The notes beneath the pieces are model-generated. The model was not told the DNA's origin. It ran no database searches and was given only the letters and a program-made list of their open reading frames with translations. Below are positions 4,996 to 34,666 of a stretch of DNA of 41,660 nucleotides, one piece after another. Origin of the DNA: a virus; the IMG/VR virus record IMGVR_UViG_3300025846_000005, positions 1-41,660 of that record; one strand, written 5' to 3'. The stretch's first letter is position 1. Each line of letters begins with the position of its first letter. A program made the translations under genes and the position numbers.

Positions 4996-5805
4996 ATGGT
5001 CGATAAATATAGGTCGATAATTGAAGATTTAGACAATATAATCGACGGCAAAAACTCCGAGATTGATACACTAACTCGTTCGATTAATGCCCTATCACAA
5101 CAACACAAGTCGATGAAACTTGACTTTGACAAAGAATTAGTCACCAAATCAGCCAAGACTGAGGCAGAATTAGACGACAGACTTAAAAATAGGCGTAAAG
5201 ACTTGTCTGATATAGAGAATGATATTTTACGACATAAGGAAATAATCGCTAACCTGACCAAACAATCAATTAGTGAACAGAATAATCTAAAACTAGCCCA
5301 AGAGTGTGGTAAAACGCAGAAAAATGCTATCGATAAAGAGATTACTGGGCTATCAACCACTAAGGATTCCCTAAACTTACAAATATCATCTGCGAAATCA
5401 GAAGTCATAGCTCTGCAAACCGAAAAGACCACAATACAGACTGAAATAGCTAATCTAAACAATAGTATTAATGTAGTAAGCGAGAAATTAGCGTTTGAAA
5501 CTGAGGAAATCAACCAGGTAGACTTCAAACTAGAAGAGTTAAAGCGAACGTACGACTTTGAGAGTGCCAACAACGAAAATAACGAAAAACTAGCGCAGTC
5601 TAGGTTAAATGATATAAATAGACAACTGCAGAACGCTACTCAATCATTGCAGGTATTAAAGTCAGAAGAAGATACGTTAAGGCAAGACTTCGCCGATTGG
5701 TCAATGAAACTGACCGAGAAGGAATCACAACTACGTATGCGCGAGGAAAGAGTCAATGCGCAAGAAAAGCGCGTATTCAACTATGCTAAGTTTACTGGTT
5801 TGTGA
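4996..5805 (+). CDS. Long coiled-coil protein
   Basis: This encodes 269 aa, predicted to be almost continuous alpha-helix with heptad periodicity from about residue 5 to 260 and very few Pro or Gly. It contains no Cys except near residue 112. It starts 2 bp after the previous gene with no strong Shine-Dalgarno sequence, so it is probably translationally coupled. Such rod proteins in a structural operon may be internal or appendage components. No specific function can be assigned. Confidence 0.6.
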   Translation: MVDKYRSIIEDLDNIIDGKNSEIDTLTRSINALSQQHKSMKLDFDKELVTKSAKTEAELDDRLKNRRKDLSDIENDILRHKEIIANLTKQSISEQNNLKLAQECGKTQKNAIDKEITGLSTTKDSLNLQISSAKSEVIALQTEKTTIQTEIANLNNSINVVSEKLAFETEEINQVDFKLEELKRTYDFESANNENNEKLAQSRLNDINRQLQNATQSLQVLKSEEDTLRQDFADWSMKLTEKESQLRMREERVNAQEKRVFNYAKFTGL

Positions 5806-13158: not shown

Positions 13159-15921
13159 ATGCCCGAATATATTAGTATCTTTGCTAAGAAAGATAAAAAA
13201 ACTACCTCATCAGGTGGATATGTTAGTCCTCTTGCTGGTCGCGATTATAAAGAACCTAAAATCGAGACAGCACCAGTTGTTAAACCAGTTAGCAACGCCT
13301 CTACTGGTCCAATTGATGCAGTCAGTAAGACTATGCCAAAAGCACCATATCCAGTACAACCGAATACAGTTCCTAAAATACCAGTTGTAGATAATAGACC
13401 ATTCCCAATGCGAGTACCTGGAACTACTCCGACTAAAGAGGAACAGATTAAATATGCGCCAAAACCTATTTCTAACTTAAAAGTCCCAGGAATTGATTTA
13501 TCACTTACAACTGGCACTGGACTTACTCAAGAGAAACGAATACAACAAAATCAGGTTAATGCTAAATTAGCGGCAGACACTAAAGCAAAGCAACTTGCCG
13601 AGGCTAATAAGTTTTATGATACCGAATACGAAACGGCAACTGGTAAGGTTAAAGGTAAAGATATACCAGTACAATCTAAAATATTTGAGCCAGTTGATAC
13701 TAGTAAAAATAAACCAGGAGTTATTACCTTTCAAAGTCCATTAGCTAAAGGGTCTAAAACTTATGGTGAAATTGTAGACAAATATAATGGCATGTCGGCT
13801 GCCGATCAACACGCATTTCTATCGTCATTATCAAAGGTCGCATCAAGTAATCCATTGAACTCACCAGAATTACAGAATAACGTAAATGATGCCTCTATCG
13901 CGTTATCTTTATTAGATGAAAAAGGTAAGAATAAAACAAGTACAATAGGGTCATTCTTAAAAGATTTAGTTAGTGGCACTGTTGATTCTGCATTAAAGGG
14001 TAGTTCAGCCATCAGTGCGCTCGCAGAAGCTGGTATGAACACTGTTGCAGGCAAAGAAGCTGGAACAACCTATTCAGAACAAAAAGCTGAACAAGATTTT
14101 AAAGATGGCAAGATAAGCGCATCTGAATTAGCTTCTGCAAGAAATCAAGGTCAATTGACTAGACAAGAATTAATCGGCACTAAACCTAAAAGTGGTTTTG
14201 AGGGTGTGATAGATAAAGCCCTTAGATTAGGTGGCGCAGTTGCTAATACAGCAGGGTTAGTAATGCCACTTGAATCATTCTGGTCAGCCTCCACTAAGAC
14301 TATTGCTGGCATGACTGCTAAAGAAATTGCTATTACCTATTTTAAAGAAGGACTCAATAACGCTATTACAAATGCGCTAAGTGCCTTTCAGAGTACTGGA
14401 ACTGATACCAAGTGGGAAGATGTGTTAACACAAGGTGCAATGGGCGCTGGCTTTGGTCTAGGCGGTAGAGCGTTAGGTGATGTCGTACAGTATCTGACAA
14501 GAGCAAAGATGACACCTAAGATGTTCTCGGAACTACCGCCTGAAATACAATTAGATTATATTAAAAAAGCTACTGAAGGTTTGCCAATCGCTGATGTTAA
14601 AGAAGTGGCTGATGCTGTTAAGACTGGGACTAAAAATATTGAGGAAGCGCCAACTCCACAGGCTAAAGTTATCTCTAATCTTGAAGAGTCCACTGGCACT
14701 AAAATACCAGAACGTCAGGCTGCTAATTTGGCTGAGAACGCACCTGAAGCCCCACAAGCGCCTGTAGTAGGAAAAACTCCATTGCATGATGAAGCATTAA
14801 AATATAATAACCCAGACGAGTTTATAAAATCACAAGGACAACCACTTTATCACGGCACTAACGCTAATTTTGACACACTAGATAGTAAAATGGCAGGCAC
14901 TAGTAATGATTACGGAGTTTGGGGTGAGGGAACTTATGTTACACCACATAAAGACACTGCTGTAAATTATGGTAAAAATATACATGAAGTATATGGCACT
15001 CCCAAAAATCCACTTGATGTAAATAGTTTTAAATCTGTTGATGAAGCAGCCGACTATTTAGATATGTCACCTGACGCACTGAGGATGGATGAAGATGGTT
15101 CAATACGACCAGTCGGTAATCAGGCATCACAATTTAGTAGCCATGTAAAAGAAAAAGGTTATGATGGGATAATTAAAAATCGTGGCGATAAAAGTACTGA
15201 AATTGTATTATTCGATACTAATAACATTAAAACTAAACAACAACTCACTGACATTTACAATGAAGCTCACTCTCTCGCCCCACAAGTAAGTAAGACACCA
15301 GAAATCAGCACTCCAAAAGTTGAGACGCCAGTTATTGAAGCGCCTAAAGTTGAAGTCAAAAAGCCCAAAGTTACTACAACGTCAACAGTCGGTACTTCTA
15401 AGTTGGCTACACGAGTTAAAAAAGCCGCCATGCGTAAAAAAATGATATATGGTTTTGATAAGACTTTTAATGACTTACCAGAATATGATAGAGTAACCCG
15501 TAAAGAACAGATGACAAAGGCCACAGATTTTATATTGAATGACCGAGAGAATGCTATTAAGGTCGCTATGGGTAAACAGGCAGCACCTGATGGAATATTA
15601 AATAATAGTGTATGGATGGCCGTTAAGGAATACGCCGAAAACACTGGGGACGTCGAGTTAATGAGACAACTAGCACAATCTGAAATTGTTACTCGCGCTA
15701 CTGGAATGGGTCAAGAAATCAGTATGTTAGCGGAGAAGAATCCTCATTCTGCAGTTGAAAATATTAGACAAGTTCGCGAAACTCGTGCAAAAGCGATGGA
15801 AAAGAAATATAGGACTACAATAGACAAAGAGGTTAAAAAGGCTAAGGTGTCAGTTGACAAGGTAACCCCTAAAGCTTCTAAGGAGACGTGGGCATCATTT
15901 ATATCGGGGCTAGAATGCTAG
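13159..15921 (+). CDS. Large ejection protein with ADP-ribosyltransferase-like domain
   Basis: This encodes 920 aa. The first 150 residues are Pro/Lys-rich and disordered. A helical part with hydrophobic segments (about 265-460) follows and could help cross the membrane. Residues about 563-695 look like an ART domain of the polyvalent-protein type: LYHGT with His565, a GEGTYVTP strand, and a final strand STEIVLFD with Glu681, giving an H-Y-E-like set. A charged helical C-terminal region ends shortly after TWASFISGLEC. The HNH gene begins at once, so the reading frame may have been interrupted and this protein may once have been fused to 16610-18880. ADP-ribosylation of host proteins by an injected enzyme (as T4 Alt does) is an inference. 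Confidence 0.65.
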   Translation: MPEYISIFAKKDKKTTSSGGYVSPLAGRDYKEPKIETAPVVKPVSNASTGPIDAVSKTMPKAPYPVQPNTVPKIPVVDNRPFPMRVPGTTPTKEEQIKYAPKPISNLKVPGIDLSLTTGTGLTQEKRIQQNQVNAKLAADTKAKQLAEANKFYDTEYETATGKVKGKDIPVQSKIFEPVDTSKNKPGVITFQSPLAKGSKTYGEIVDKYNGMSAADQHAFLSSLSKVASSNPLNSPELQNNVNDASIALSLLDEKGKNKTSTIGSFLKDLVSGTVDSALKGSSAISALAEAGMNTVAGKEAGTTYSEQKAEQDFKDGKISASELASARNQGQLTRQELIGTKPKSGFEGVIDKALRLGGAVANTAGLVMPLESFWSASTKTIAGMTAKEIAITYFKEGLNNAITNALSAFQSTGTDTKWEDVLTQGAMGAGFGLGGRALGDVVQYLTRAKMTPKMFSELPPEIQLDYIKKATEGLPIADVKEVADAVKTGTKNIEEAPTPQAKVISNLEESTGTKIPERQAANLAENAPEAPQAPVVGKTPLHDEALKYNNPDEFIKSQGQPLYHGTNANFDTLDSKMAGTSNDYGVWGEGTYVTPHKDTAVNYGKNIHEVYGTPKNPLDVNSFKSVDEAADYLDMSPDALRMDEDGSIRPVGNQASQFSSHVKEKGYDGIIKNRGDKSTEIVLFDTNNIKTKQQLTDIYNEAHSLAPQVSKTPEISTPKVETPVIEAPKVEVKKPKVTTTSTVGTSKLATRVKKAAMRKKMIYGFDKTFNDLPEYDRVTRKEQMTKATDFILNDRENAIKVAMGKQAAPDGILNNSVWMAVKEYAENTGDVELMRQLAQSEIVTRATGMGQEISMLAEKNPHSAVENIRQVRETRAKAMEKKYRTTIDKEVKKAKVSVDKVTPKASKETWASFISGLEC

Positions 15922-16610: not shown

Positions 16611-18880
16611 TGGCTAATTTCTGTCTTATAAAGAAAAAGGTTAATGACTTTAAAAAAGGTTTAATGTCTGGCGAGTTAGACCCTGTTAAGATGTCAACTA
16701 TGGCATCTGCTGATAGACGCACCTTATTAGAGAAATATGTCGGAGTTGACCAAGCTAAAAACGTCAATGCCGAGTTCGAGTCTAAACTTTTACTTAAGAA
16801 TCAACAGCAAGGTATGCTTACTTGGGCAAAACAAGTTACAGGTATTAAACCTAACGTCAGACGAGACATCATTACCAGAATAAGTAAAATGACGGAAGTA
16901 TTAGACCCTGCCGATAAGGATATGTTCTTGCAGGATTTAGTTGAACGTAGGTTAGAAGTATCTGTAACAGTTGATGAAGCGTCAAATATAGCAAGAATGT
17001 CAAAAGATATTACTGACACAGGTGATGTTTGGACCAAAAAATTAGATGAAAACAAAACTTGGTCAGATAATTCTACAAAGACTCGTACGGAATGGATAAA
17101 AGATACTGATAGATTAGAATATGGTCTGAAACAAGTTCAACTCAAAAATTATGTAGAAGATTTAAAACTACAAGCCAAAAAGATAACATGGAAACAACCA
17201 GTTAGAAAGATTATTAGTATTCCAAATGCCACGATGGGTGTTATGAAATCAGTGATAGCTTCACTTGATGATAGCTTTTTTGGACGGCAAGGTATTAAAA
17301 CCATTCTTACTGGTTTAAACAATAGAGGCAATTATAAAATATGGGGTAGCGCGTTTATAAAATCTTTTGTAGATATTAAAAGACAACTACTGGCTAGCGG
17401 TAAGTGGTACAAATCAGGAGATGATGCAGTAATGGATATGATAAAAGCTGACATATTATCACGACCAAATGCTATGAGTGGTAAATATAAAGTAGGTGGT
17501 TATGGACTTGATATTTTATCAGAAGAAGCGTTTCCATCATCATTTCCAGAAAAGATTCCTTTATTTGGTAGAGTATTTAAAGCGTCAGAAGTGGCATATA
17601 ATGCCGGGGCATTGCGTATGCGCGCTGACTTGGCTGATAACCTGATAACAAGAGCTGAAAAGAATGGCGTTAATACGTTGAATAAGGCTGAGGCCGAAGG
17701 ATTAGGGCATCTAGTTGGTTCAATGACTGGACGTGGTAGTTTAGGAAAAGGTGAAGTATTAGGAAAAGAAGTCAATGTATTACTATTCTCTGGTAAGTTT
17801 TTAAAAGGCAATATAGACTCTTTGACTGCTCATATATTTGATAAAGCAGTACGGGAGAATCCTGTCGCGCGCAAAGAAGCCGCAAAAAACCTTTTAAGTA
17901 TCATCACTACGATGGCTGGTGTTATGACTATCTCCAATATATTAAGTCCTGGTAGTGCAGAAACAGACCCACAGGGTACAAACTTTGGAAAAATTAAAAT
18001 ATTTGGTCATCCGACAGATATAAGTGGTGGCATGGGAGCAATTGTAGTTCTTGCATCAAGGTTAGTACCAACCTTCCATGATGGTAAATGGAGTAACTGG
18101 TCAAAGAATACAAATGGTAAGTGGACAGATTTAAATGCGAAAACATCAACTGGAAAACCAGTTTATGGCGCTCAGACTGCAATGGATGTTTTTGATAGTT
18201 TTTGGCAAGGAAAATTATCTCCTGGTGCTGGTGTTGTAAGAGATTTGTGGAAAGGTCAAAATTATAACGGTCAACCAGTCACACCTAGTAGTGTAATCGC
18301 TGGACAGATACCATTACCTATGCAAAATGTCGTACAATTTAGCAAAGACCCTAACTCATCGTTTGTATTAGGATCATGGATTCTTGATGCGTTAGGATTC
18401 TCGGTAAGTAGTACAGTACCAAGCAACGAAAAGTCCGGCTATATTCCAGTCGGTCAGAAGATGAGCAATGATAACTTCATTGATGCAGTATCGATTTATG
18501 CTAATGCAATGGGTACAGACCCAGTAACAGCGTTCAATAGAATATTTACAGGCCAAAAGATTACTAAGGTAACTAATGGAACAGTGATAGTCGAGAGAAT
18601 GCCACTTGACGCATCCCAGGATATAAAGAAAAAAGCCAATGCAGATAATCCGACTATGAAACTAGAACACCTTGTACCACTTGAGATAGGTGGTTCTAAT
18701 GATAAAAGTAACTTAAGGGTCGTTACAACTTCTCAGTGGACTCAGTACACAAAGGTCGACAATACCCTTGGTAAGGCATTAAAAGCTGGCACTATTAATA
18801 AATCAACCGCCCAAAAATTGGCATTAGACGTTAAAAATGGTAAAATATCAGCACAAAGTGTTATAGATAAGTATAAATAA
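16610..18880 (+). CDS. Large ejection protein with C-terminal HNH-like domain
   Basis: This encodes 756 aa. The N-terminus (NFCLIKKKVNDFKKGL) starts abruptly with a helical region and no lead-in, as if it were the continuation of the 920-aa protein upstream. A GGAG lies 8 nt before the ATG, so independent translation is possible. The central part contains hydrophobic segments (about 425-445, 470-490). The last 100 residues contain LEHLVPLEIGGSNDKSNL, an H-N pattern typical of HNH nuclease domains (His about residue 685). A virion-carried nuclease is therefore possible. Part of the T7-like or P22-like internal protein group by position. Confidence 0.6.
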   Translation: MANFCLIKKKVNDFKKGLMSGELDPVKMSTMASADRRTLLEKYVGVDQAKNVNAEFESKLLLKNQQQGMLTWAKQVTGIKPNVRRDIITRISKMTEVLDPADKDMFLQDLVERRLEVSVTVDEASNIARMSKDITDTGDVWTKKLDENKTWSDNSTKTRTEWIKDTDRLEYGLKQVQLKNYVEDLKLQAKKITWKQPVRKIISIPNATMGVMKSVIASLDDSFFGRQGIKTILTGLNNRGNYKIWGSAFIKSFVDIKRQLLASGKWYKSGDDAVMDMIKADILSRPNAMSGKYKVGGYGLDILSEEAFPSSFPEKIPLFGRVFKASEVAYNAGALRMRADLADNLITRAEKNGVNTLNKAEAEGLGHLVGSMTGRGSLGKGEVLGKEVNVLLFSGKFLKGNIDSLTAHIFDKAVRENPVARKEAAKNLLSIITTMAGVMTISNILSPGSAETDPQGTNFGKIKIFGHPTDISGGMGAIVVLASRLVPTFHDGKWSNWSKNTNGKWTDLNAKTSTGKPVYGAQTAMDVFDSFWQGKLSPGAGVVRDLWKGQNYNGQPVTPSSVIAGQIPLPMQNVVQFSKDPNSSFVLGSWILDALGFSVSSTVPSNEKSGYIPVGQKMSNDNFIDAVSIYANAMGTDPVTAFNRIFTGQKITKVTNGTVIVERMPLDASQDIKKKANADNPTMKLEHLVPLEIGGSNDKSNLRVVTTSQWTQYTKVDNTLGKALKAGTINKSTAQKLALDVKNGKISAQSVIDKYK

Positions 18881-18891
18881 AAGGAGATAAT

Positions 18892-19050
18892 ATGGACAAA
18901 GGTATCAAAGGCGTAATCGCAAAAAATATGTTCGGTAAAAAGAGAATGCTAAAAAAAGCTGTCAAGAAAGACAACGAAAAAGATAATGGCAAAAAAGAGA
19001 CTAAGGGTCACGAAAAAGCAGAGTCTAAAAGTTTTGAAGTCGCAGAATAG
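18892..19050 (+). CDS. 52-aa Lys-rich protein
   Basis: This small basic protein (about one third Lys) has a perfect AAGGAG site and follows the last ejection gene by 11 bp. Its stop codon directly abuts the stop codon of the convergent zinc-ribbon gene at 19051, leaving no room for a terminator. It may be a small DNA- or capsid-binding protein. No family is recognised. Confidence 0.6.
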   Translation: MDKGIKGVIAKNMFGKKRMLKKAVKKDNEKDNGKKETKGHEKAESKSFEVAE

Positions 19051-25212: not shown

Positions 25213-25494
25213 TTATAAACTACTCAGAAACTTTTGTTTCATATCTCGTATTCTTTCTACGTTTTTATGTCTCTGTTCGTCAGTTAATGAACTAGTCGGT
25301 AAACACAATGGTTGCATATTAGTAAAAGAATATCTTGATGGCGGAGACTTTTCAACACTCATTATTGAACTTGCTTTGAGTAAAATATCATCAATCTCAA
25401 CATATTCAGCGCCACTTAAAAGTGCTTTTTTAACTGCTTCAGCTCGCTCTTTTGATACTTCTAGGATAAGGTTTCCAGATGTTTTAATTATCAT
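25213..25494 (-). CDS. Unknown protein of the replication operon
   Basis: This encodes 93 aa. The N-terminal half is alpha/beta, with a helix rich in Glu/Lys/Ala and strands around EYVEIDDILLKASSI; the C-terminal half is polar with a charged helix. Its start overlaps the end of the initiator-like gene (4 nt). No family is recognised. Confidence 0.5.
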   Translation of the reverse strand: MIIKTSGNLILEVSKERAEAVKKALLSGAEYVEIDDILLKASSIMSVEKSPPSRYSFTNMQPLCLPTSSLTDEQRHKNVERIRDMKQKFLSSL

Positions 25495-26192
25495 ACCTTA
25501 ACCACCTTTTTAGTACTTCCTGACGATTGACGTTTCCCCCAAGCAATAAGTTCATTAACTTTTGATTGTAACGATACGAAGTCTGATATACGAGGGGCAA
25601 ACTGATCACTTTGAGATACTGCAACGCCACGCATAAGAGCCGACAATTTATCTTTACCGTGTTTCTTAAGTAAATTACTACAAGCATAACGGTTTTTTTG
25701 TTTATTACTTTCAATTTGATAACCGACTATTTCCTCCCATAATGAGAAAATATCATTTATGTCAGTATTACCTTTACTATTACTTGTACATATACTTATA
25801 CTATTACCTATACCTATACACTCATGAACCGTTCCTGAGCCACTCATGAGCGACTCTTGAACAGTTCTAGGTAATATACTAAAGTCTTTTTCATATAATT
25901 TAGCAGTCAATTTTCCTTTAGTCGGTTGTATATAATCCTGATTATTAAAAATATAATACCCGTCAATAACTTTTATGAAGTCCTTTTTTATAAGTTCCTT
26001 TTTGCATAGTTGTATAGTTTCGCTGTTATACCCGGTATATGCTGACATTAGGCGATCACTACATTTTAATGCTTGCGTGCCATTTCTATCGGGATTAGTT
26101 AATAGGCAGATATAAAAATATCTAGCATCTGGTAATAACTCGAATATCCTATCTTGTTTCCAAAAATCTGTTTTTATTATTGCCGTTTTCAC
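25491..26192 (-). CDS. Replication initiator/replisome organiser-like protein
   Basis: This encodes 233 aa. The N-terminal 90 residues (FWKQDRIFELLPDARYFYICL then a winged-helix pattern) match the DNA-binding part of phage replisome organisers of the DnaD/O type. The C-terminal region (about 150-210, IFSLWEEIVGYQI and helical tail) resembles a helicase-loader interaction domain. The start is GTG at 26192. Its only ribosome site (GAGGG) is in the 3' arm of a terminator-like hairpin, so translation and transcription are probably controlled there. The adjacent gene-poor region may hold the origin. Confidence 0.6.
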   Translation of the reverse strand: MKTAIIKTDFWKQDRIFELLPDARYFYICLLTNPDRNGTQALKCSDRLMSAYTGYNSETIQLCKKELIKKDFIKVIDGYYIFNNQDYIQPTKGKLTAKLYEKDFSILPRTVQESLMSGSGTVHECIGIGNSISICTSNSKGNTDINDIFSLWEEIVGYQIESNKQKNRYACSNLLKKHGKDKLSALMRGVAVSQSDQFAPRISDFVSLQSKVNELIAWGKRQSSGSTKKVVKV

Positions 26193-26269
26193 AAAAAAGT
26201 GCCCTCACTTTCATGAGGGCTTGCTCTTGTAACCAATGCTATTGTATCACAAAGAGTACTAACCCTCAA
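26193..26269 (-). promoter_or_regulatory. Initiator promoter and hairpin leader
   Basis: TTGAGG (26264-26269), a 17-bp spacer and an extended -10 TGATACAAT (26241-26249) form a promoter. The leader then folds as GCCCTCA/TGAGGGC (26201-26207 and 26214-26220) followed by six T residues directly before the GTG start. The 3' arm of the hairpin carries the ribosome site, 9 nt from the start. Confidence 0.65.
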
Positions 26270-26310
26270 TACTTAAATTGTTAATGAGTAGCGCTGATAG
26301 TTACAAGAGC
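26223..26310. repeat. 11-bp perfect inverted repeat around the initiator promoter
   Basis: GCTCTTGTAAC (26223-26233) and GTTACAAGAGC (26300-26310) are perfect inverted copies. They flank the initiator promoter, one upstream of it and one in its leader. They could be operator sites or, in a longer transcript from 26323-26351, pair as RNA. Confidence 0.55.
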
Positions 26311-26312
26311 GA

Positions 26313-26328
26313 TACTATCTCTAGTATA
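26313..26328. promoter_or_regulatory. Palindromic operator-like site at a -10 box
   Basis: ATACTATCTCTAGTAT is a 6-bp inverted repeat with a 4-bp centre. It coincides with the -10 box (26323-26328) of the upstream minus-strand promoter, so a dimeric repressor could act here. Confidence 0.4.
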
Positions 26329-26351
26329 CGCCAATCTACTTTTTATTTCAA
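26323..26351 (-). promoter_or_regulatory. Second minus-strand promoter upstream of the initiator
   Basis: TTGAAA (26346-26351), exactly 17 bp, then TATACT (26323-26328): a near-consensus promoter. A transcript would begin with the hairpin GATAGT/ACTATC whose loop holds GCTCTTGTA, and continue through the initiator leader. Confidence 0.6.
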
Positions 26352-26384
26352 CCCGATTATGCCTATGTTCATAAACTGTGTACA

Positions 26385-26524
26385 AATATAAGAAGCCCTA
26401 GGTGTAGAGCTTCTTGAGAGCTAATTCGGAGGAATTAACTTTAGAATTGGAAACGGAAAGTACAATCGTCTCGTCGCTACAATCAGTTTAGTAAACGATG
26501 TTCGATACTGACTGTATTATAACA
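26385..26524 (-). ncRNA. Candidate small RNA C
   Basis: An extended -10 TGTTATAAT (-10 at 26516-26521) would start an RNA near 26509. It has no ORF. It contains a hairpin AATTC-CTCC-GAATT, whose loop is complementary to Shine-Dalgarno GGAG. It ends in a 9-bp stem, AAGAAGCTC/GGGCTTCTT (26390-26398 and 26407-26415), with a weak U-tract. Predicted length is about 120 nt. The anti-SD loop resembles C-rich-loop regulatory RNAs. Confidence 0.45.
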
Positions 26525-26537
26525 TTTATGGTTACAA

Positions 26538-26635
26538 ATAAAAATGAGACTTCCTGTGTACTCCTCAGAAGTCTCATATACCGTTTGATTTGGTAGCTAT
26601 CTCCATTTCTATCGGTTAGCTATTTTATTGTAACA
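26538..26635 (-). ncRNA. Candidate small RNA B
   Basis: An extended -10 TGTTACAAT (-10 at 26627-26632) would start an RNA near 26620. It ends in a perfect 10-bp hairpin, ATGAGACTTC/GAAGTCTCAT (26544-26553 and 26568-26577), followed by TTTTATTT, a strong terminator. The loop contains GAGGAG. No ORF of note. Length is about 80 nt. Confidence 0.5.
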
Positions 26636-26645
26636 TAAGTTGGCT

Positions 26646-26740
26646 AAAAACAAAACAAGCCAGAGCGAAAGGGTAAACCGAAGTTTAAGATTCTCTGACT
26701 TGTTTAAGCGTATTATAGCATTTTAACCGAGTATAATCAA
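26646..26740 (-). ncRNA. Candidate small RNA A
   Basis: The promoter is TTGATT (26735-26740), 17 bp, and extended -10 TGCTATAAT (-10 at 26712-26717). The RNA would start near 26705 and consist of an 11-bp stem, ACAAGTCAGAG/CTCTGGCTTGT (one G-U), enclosing a second stem TAAAC-TTCG-GTTTA with a UUCG tetraloop, then TTTTGTTTTT. It is about 60 nt, self-contained and without an ORF. Confidence 0.55.
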
Positions 26741-26752
26741 TCAGTAATATGG

Positions 26753-26781
26753 TTGCAAAACGTAAGCGACTGTGATAAACT
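26753..26781 (+). promoter_or_regulatory. Early promoter P1 with conserved spacer element
   Basis: TTGCAA (26753-26758), 17 bp, TAAACT (26776-26781). The spacer and first -10 bases are CGTAAGCGACTGTGATAA (26761-26778), identical in promoters P2 (30831-30848) and P3 (34636-34653). The downstream leader also resembles theirs (AAACGAAAGGG before the start). It drives the recombination genes. Confidence 0.75.
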
Positions 26782-26812
26782 AGTTACATAATCTTAAACG
26801 AAAGGGATTTAC

Positions 26813-27361
26813 ATGAAATATAAAACCGATAGTGAATTATTAACAGAATTAAAAGAACCATTTACCTCCAATGAACTAGATTGGAGAGTCCAATTTGCAG
26901 ATAACGGTAAGGATAATAAACCATATGCCTCATTAGTAGCTTATATAGACGCACGAGCTATACAGAATCGTCTTGATAATGTCTGTGGTACTGGTGGATG
27001 GTGGAATCAACCACCACAGTATTCTAGTTCTGGAAAAGGAGTTAATCAGGGTATAACCATCAAATTGCCAGAAGCTGGCGAAATAACTAAATGGGATGGT
27101 GCTGATGAAACTGCTATTGAAGCCGTAAAAGGTGGACTATCTAGCGCCTTCAAACGGTCAGCCGTACTTTGGGGTATAGGCAGATATTTATATGATATTG
27201 AGATCGCTTATGTGAATTTGCAAAAAGACAAACCACAATCAACCGAGGGTTGGGTTAGAACAAAAGTCAAAATTGGTGGCCGTGCTGAAATGTATTACTT
27301 CAAAAAGCCTACATTACCAAAAGAGTTTTTGCCAAAGGAAAATATAAATGTCGCTGCCTGA
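26813..27361 (+). CDS. Rad52-type single-strand annealing protein
   Basis: This encodes 182 aa. The conserved Rad52/Rad22 core is visible: a start helix with ELDWRVQ, YIDARAIQNRLD, a WWNQPPQY strand, and EAVKGGLSSAFKRSAVLWGIGRYLY (about 100-124). Such phage recombinases anneal complementary strands during replication and repair of incoming DNA. The exonuclease partner follows with a 14-nt overlap. It is the first gene behind promoter P1; the ribosome site is AAAGGG. Confidence 0.9.
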   Translation: MKYKTDSELLTELKEPFTSNELDWRVQFADNGKDNKPYASLVAYIDARAIQNRLDNVCGTGGWWNQPPQYSSSGKGVNQGITIKLPEAGEITKWDGADETAIEAVKGGLSSAFKRSAVLWGIGRYLYDIEIAYVNLQKDKPQSTEGWVRTKVKIGGRAEMYYFKKPTLPKEFLPKENINVAA

Positions 27362-30822: not shown

Positions 30823-30851
30823 TTGACAAGCGTAAGCGACTGTGATAAGAT
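30823..30851 (+). promoter_or_regulatory. Early promoter P2 with conserved spacer element
   Basis: TTGACA (30823-30828), 17 bp, TAAGAT (30846-30851); it has the same CGTAAGCGACTGTGATAA element. The leader (AACAAACGAAGGGGTG) is similar to P1 and P3. A leader of about 115 nt precedes the first clear gene at 30976 and contains only very short possible ORFs. Confidence 0.8.
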
Positions 30852-34511: not shown

Positions 34512-34666
34512 TGCAATCACCATTAGACAATCCAGATACAAAGATAATTAAACCTAATCCCAGGGTCGTTCTGGACGATCAACCGGAAACAGTCCTAGTC
34601 GATATTCTAAACGAGAAACACAAGCTATTGATAAACGTAAGCGACTGTGATAAAATAGAGACATAA
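34511..34666 (+). CDS. 51-aa protein overlapping promoter P3
   Basis: It starts behind GGGAG (34498-34502). It is acidic, with Pro/Asp-rich beginning. Its last 14 codons (LLINVSDCDKIET end) coincide with promoter P3, so the same DNA encodes protein and promoter. Confidence 0.4.
   Translation: MQSPLDNPDTKIIKPNPRVVLDDQPETVLVDILNEKHKLLINVSDCDKIET
34628..34656 (+). promoter_or_regulatory. Early promoter P3 with conserved spacer element
   Basis: TTGATA (34628-34633), 17 bp, TAAAAT (34651-34656), with CGTAAGCGACTGTGATAA at 34636-34653. It lies within the end of the 51-aa gene. A leader with AAGAAGGGG leads to 34691. Confidence 0.75.

Follow-up and report, generated by a model that had tools for sequence, protein, structure and literature searches.

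Small antisense RNAs encoded opposite the early operon, such as lambda OOP and P22 sar, limit a phage function, and C-rich RNA segments pair with Shine-Dalgarno (SD) sequences in general. In phages P1 and P7, the c4 antisense RNA is a small RNA with loop segments complementary to phage mRNA and blocks the ribosome-binding region (reviewed in PMC12197685). C-rich loops binding SD sequences are also known from the multicopy LhrC sRNAs of Listeria monocytogenes and from other UCCC-motif sRNAs such as RsaE and FsrA (PMC4132741). Here, a 41,660-bp IMG/VR phage record (the window, i.e. the whole stretch of DNA analysed) was examined for small RNA genes. Its largest gap would hold an array of sRNA genes, each with an extended -10 promoter and a terminator, on the strand opposite to an early recombination operon. 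The first member, RNA A, would repress early-gene translation by antisense pairing to an SD; we give this reading a probability of about 55%.

Like c4, RNA A would be phage-encoded and would present complementary segments, its pairing being predicted. However, c4 controls an antirepressor in immunity, whereas RNA A would be a separate gene divergent from the recombination operon, is unrelated to c4 in sequence and shape, and belongs to a multi-unit array. With LhrC and the UCCC-motif sRNAs the array has in common several sRNA units and a C-rich, SD-complementary loop, for which binding is here predicted; LhrC copies are mutually similar and chromosomal, whereas the units described here are mutually different, lie in a phage and have a divergent operon as proposed target. 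In lambda OOP and P22 sar, the RNA and its target overlap in cis, while RNA A does not overlap rad52 and would pair via a short separate segment. RNA A is accordingly best described as a putative phage-encoded, SD-directed antisense sRNA within an array, without an Rfam family. In the literature searched, no paper on regulatory RNAs in Patescibacteria phages was found.

Promoter-terminator units in the gene-free gap

The gap at 26193-26812 (620 bp) is the sole gene-free stretch of more than 300 bp in the window and lies between a replication initiator gene and a plus-strand recombination operon with Rad52/Erf and YqaJ genes (Table 1). An earlier note on this DNA had described three minus-strand extended -10 boxes in the gap, each with a hairpin. 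All of them are present (units A, B and C), and a fourth unit on the same strand (unit D, 26316-26195) had been overlooked. The motif TGNTAYAAT occurs seven times in the genome, with eight occurrences expected, and four of the seven are located on one strand in the gap. A promoter-plus-terminator detector returned three units in the gap, a number not reached in 300 dinucleotide shuffles of it (maximum two), and no shuffle folded as well as units A, B, C or D (fold z -4.6, -4.2, -3.4 and -5.3, respectively). The clustering of units in the gap is far beyond chance. The units have their own promoter and intrinsic terminator and contain no ORF, the U-tail of RNA C being weak; their transcription is predicted.

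Table 1. Positions of the units, neighbouring genes and related elements in the window and, where indicated, in related phages.
Feature	Position	Strand	Remarks
Promoter of RNA A	26712..26740	-	-35 TTGATT, 17-nt spacer, extended -10 TGCTATAAT (26720-26712); same place relative to early promoter in G001
RNA A, putative sRNA of ~60 nt	26645..26705	-	predicted start ~26705; 26704-26693 paired with 26665-26654, UUCG hairpin inside this stem, U-rich end
CCCUUUCG, unpaired segment of RNA A and proposed seed for antisense pairing	26666..26673	-	complement of rad52 SD
Extended -10 of RNA B, TGTTACAAT	26627..26635	-	from sequence
RNA B, putative sRNA of ~83 nt	26538..26620	-	predicted start ~26620; terminator stem between 26577-26568 and 26553-26544
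Extended -10 of RNA C, TGTTATAAT	26516..26524	-	preceded by TTTGTAACCATAAA
RNA C, putative sRNA of ~126 nt	26384..26509	-	predicted start ~26509; AGUUAAUUC-CUCC-GAAUUAGCU hairpin 26440-26419; terminator-like hairpin 26415-26390
Promoter of unit D	26323..26351	-	TTGAAA-17-TATACT; aligns with promoter of fourth unit of G001, score 53.5, shuffle maximum 50
Unit D, probable leader RNA of initiator gene	26195..26316	-	closing stem 26310-26300 with 26233-26223 (11 bp)
Replication initiator / helicase-loader-like protein	25491..26192	-	phrog_6251 (E 3.9e-9), phrog_1701; GTG start directly after unit D terminator
Early promoter TTGCAA-17-TAAACT	26753..26781	+	conserved spacer AACGTAAGCGACTGTGA, common to 30823-30851, 34628-34656 and G001
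SD of rad52, CGAAAGGG, proposed RNA A target	26799..26806	+	complementary to CCCUUUCG; rank 1 of 73 by duplex energy; ATG at 26813
Rad52/Erf-like annealing protein, first gene of divergent early operon	26813..27361	+	protein annotation
cpn60-leader pseudoknot, relatives	G012:9366-9427, G003:4242-4290, G002 ~18842-18910, G029 ~26517-26486, G026		
cpn60-leader pseudoknot, relatives, continued	G001 (L022) ~5055-5110, G006, G014 ~29159-29093, G015		

The Rfam search proposed in the earlier note gave no match at the gathering score in the window, the gap included; at a relaxed threshold, the gap itself gave sub-threshold chance matches only. The same was found for the corresponding region of the relative G001, and none at all for that of the relative G002. 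A plasmid DNA search with the gap sequence gave no match. The phage DNA search matched only the rad52-coding part, in Lactococcus phages; this similarity was rejected as a host clue because of the capsid relationship, which points elsewhere. The major capsid protein has two relatives only among phage records, the better one being that of TM7 phage DolZOral124_53_65 (MG269973; 36% over 98% of the length), and a cpn60 chaperonin gene is present in both the window and MG269973. Relatives of the terminase are found in many IMG/VR contigs, and more distant ones in Patescibacteria bins. From these protein relationships the host is likely a member of the Patescibacteria, perhaps of the Saccharibacteria. 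An ADP-ribosyltransferase (ART-PolyVal) domain (E 9e-14) was recognised in the 920-aa product of 13159-15921 (+), in the structural region of the window.

A count of strict promoter-terminator units in 19 related phage records gave 32, compared to 2.75 +/- 1.6 in shuffled intergenic DNA, so that such units are about ten times as frequent in this phage group as by chance. About five tandem units are located at the same place in G002, divergent from its own rad52, and in G001 and G007 further units lie downstream of the RNA A copy and point the same way. The phage sRNA cluster beside the replication genes that the earlier note had proposed is well supported.

Structure and conservation of RNA A

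RNA A is predicted to fold into a stem of 12-13 bp enclosing the hairpin UAAAC-UUCG-GUUUA, to leave CCCUUUCG unpaired and to end in UUUUGUUUUU, which confirms the nested stem with a UUCG tetraloop described before. An alignable copy is present in G001 (contig L022; terminase about 70%) at L022:361-424, divergent from the early promoter: after the early promoter block CGTAAGCGACTGTGATA, the opposite strand carries TGTTATAAT and an RNA aligning with RNA A. The alignment of this block, promoters included, scores 89 versus 33.5 +/- 3.9. A comparison with relatives for compensatory changes had been suggested earlier; between the window and G001, 9 of 9 pairs of the outer stem are kept with two double changes and one single change, a covariation that rests on few sequences and for which the shuffle control, with two alignment rows, has no power.

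In G007 (contig L004; Rad52 74%), an RNA of about 75 nt at L004:3514-3440 is divergent from the early promoter as well. It retains the ACAA...UUGU base and has an upper stem of seven pairs, all formed although the sequence is rewritten; a GCAA hairpin lies within, CCUUUC is kept as part of CCUUUCC, and the end is U-rich. The covariance model R1, built from the two sequences of the window and G001, does not detect this RNA, which is therefore linked to RNA A by place and architecture only. Run over 287 Patescibacteria genomes without a positive control, model R1 gave no match. The three RNAs share the stem, compensatory changes, an inner hairpin, an unpaired CCYUUUC and the divergent position, G007 being included by position and architecture. 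Judged from these sequences, RNA A is a real structured RNA.

That the hairpins are instead DNA elements of a replication origin, i.e. primer or single-strand initiation sites and not RNA genes, is most improbable. The gap is indeed the largest in the genome and adjoins the initiator gene, and a rise in cumulative GC skew starts there; against this, the hairpins are ordered from promoter to terminator on one strand, the changes in RNA A preserve both pairing and the U-rich end, and the gap showed no iteron-like repeat families.

Additional non-coding elements were observed outside the window. After the array, G001 and G007 have about 420 nt of homologous non-coding DNA (L022:1635-2080 (+) and L004:3207-2750 (-); score 118 versus 31 +/- 5). 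This stretch contains a boxA-like GTTCTTTAACA and a hairpin flanked by two copies of a repeated segment and is a candidate ncRNA or leader. At L028:15399-15564 (+) lies a candidate non-coding RNA of 160 nt, whose long closed stem is very stable (about -65 kcal/mol including the promoter region); it had no Rfam match.

RNA B, RNA C and the region before the initiator gene

The end hairpin of RNA B has 10 bp and a loop containing GAGGAG, as the earlier note had described, and is followed by UUUUUA. Its 5' part shows weak similarity to unit B of G001 and to a unit of G002 (p 0.02 and 0.05). For RNA C, the CUCC loop was seen as described, but the 11-bp end hairpin is followed by AUAUUUGU, a weak U-run. 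A C-rich-loop hairpin beside a terminator is found at the place of RNA C in both G001 and G007, with no significant sequence homology of RNA C to either. A further copy of TTTGTWACCATAAATGTTATA, from the -10 region of RNA C, lies in G001 upstream of the terminase region. The loop of RNA C fits ordinary AGGAG sites, and no outstanding target was found by duplex energy. A pairing of the RNA B and RNA C loops with each other, also put forward earlier, is possible in the window (about 7 bp, one of them G-U, and a loop-loop energy of -11.7 kcal/mol) but is not kept in the corresponding sequences of G001. RNA B and RNA C are probably sRNAs as well; they would be of the same design as RNA A, RNA C carrying an anti-SD-like CUCC loop. 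The sequence CCGATAGAAATGG occurs twice in the genome on the same strand, within RNA B (26603-26615 (-)) and in the initiator coding sequence (26080-26092 (-)).

Unit D has a strong terminator (26220-26201) with a T-run directly before the initiator GTG at 26192, and an internal promoter TGATACAAT on the minus strand (26249-26241). Because the 3' arm of the terminator contains the likely SD of the initiator gene and ends at the GTG, unit D is more plausibly an attenuating leader than an sRNA. It probably is a terminator-controlled leader of the initiator gene, with a role differing from that of units A-C. The initiator protein itself had no relatives among the viral contigs or phages searched.

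All four units face the initiator gene, whose start codon adjoins the last terminator; the whole gap could thus be imagined as one cis-regulatory leader, in which serial promoters and attenuators limit initiator expression without any trans-acting RNA. This is improbable, since each unit restarts transcription and upstream terminators would for this reason not regulate downstream promoters. Moreover, the stretch examined in G007 has no minus-strand gene of note downstream, G001 has an unrelated gene after RNA A, and RNA A is kept in sequence and shape.

A different leader structure was observed before the co-chaperonin-like/cpn60 operon, where an H-type pseudoknot (CCGCAGC..GGCUACA..GCUGCGG..UGUAGCC) is located at 22097-22012 (-) of the window. 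It was found in all ten relatives with that gene, in nine by a strict automatic test, which 13 of 704 upstream regions pass in total, and in G003 by eye. Both helices are rewritten between phages, AUG or GUG often stands just before the first helix, and there was no Rfam match.

Complementarity of RNA A to early Shine-Dalgarno sequences

In the window, the complementarity of CCCUUUCG to the rad52 SD extends over 8 nt; the 8-mer is present at one of 357 ATG start sites, and 20 of 2000 shuffled loops equalled the rad52 match. For the whole RNA A against all start sites in the window, the longest complementarity is not unusual (p 0.4; second test 0.2), so that the 8 nt carry weight only when the test is confined to the conserved unpaired segment and the adjacent gene, a choice made after seeing the data. 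In G007, GAUAAUCCUUUCC is complementary over 13 nt to GGAAAGGATTATC-ATG, the start site of the gene that opens the divergent early operon, a result reached by 2 of 3000 shuffles; all ATG starts were counted here, the ORF caller having placed the start of this gene at an upstream GTG. In TM7 phage MG269973, the RNA of a separate unit before the cpn60 module is complementary to the SDs of four genes over 12, 12, 11 and 9 nt. Three of these genes lie behind a shared early promoter, and none of 1500 shuffles had three matches of at least 11 nt; this RNA, the promoter of which is weak, is analogous rather than demonstrably homologous to RNA A. The longest SD match of the G001 copy is 7 nt, and by duplex energy its best partners are two downstream early-region genes, including the gene behind another early promoter. 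SD complementarity of the accessible segment is beyond chance in G007 and MG269973.

When SD pairing was analysed for all units of all phages, no general pairing was found, and the matches obtained in a scan for any intergenic antisense to SDs were mostly other SDs. The earlier suggestion that the loops could pair with ribosome sites is supported for RNA A, via a segment that had not been singled out, but not for the other units, which show no SD pairing. The early promoters at 26753-26781, 30823-30851 and 34628-34656 (+) and at L022:301-320 (-) have a 17-nt spacer (A/T)RCGTAAGCGACTGTGA in common, which probably is an operator for an early regulator. In IMG/VR, the promoter pattern was found in G001 only, apart from one chance match in the unrelated high-GC contig L031.

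Rather unlikely, but weightier than the alternatives above, is an explanation in which the units are sRNAs and the C-rich segment of RNA A is a general anti-SD or protein-binding element for host mRNAs or the ribosome, the early-SD match following from SD-like sequence. CCUUUC belongs to the usual 16S anti-SD, the tests with the whole RNA A in the window were non-significant, and Firmicute sRNAs turn UCCC motifs on many SDs (PMC4132741). In G007 (13 nt) and MG269973 (11-12 nt), however, the matches run past the SD core into phage-specific letters.

In the preferred reading, antisense repression of early genes, the stem-loop of RNA A would present its unpaired C-rich segment to the SD of the gene heading the divergent operon, here rad52, and by covering it would lower translation of the recombination operon; pairing in the cell and the direction of this effect are predicted from complementarity and position. 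In some phages, RNA A may also repress further early genes with the same SD. The effect would set in once RNA A accumulates, as an early-gene shut-off or a copy-dependent brake. For Patescibacteria phages more widely, a conserved hub can be proposed tentatively, namely a colinear four-sRNA array divergent from the early operon, whose first RNA would be fast-rewriting, co-evolve with the SD of the operon and shut off early genes. An antisense sRNA linked to the early operon by both place and sequence would provide these phages with a switch open to direct testing. It would also suggest how similar RNAs might be traced elsewhere, namely by searching for divergent hairpin RNAs with complementarity to early SDs.
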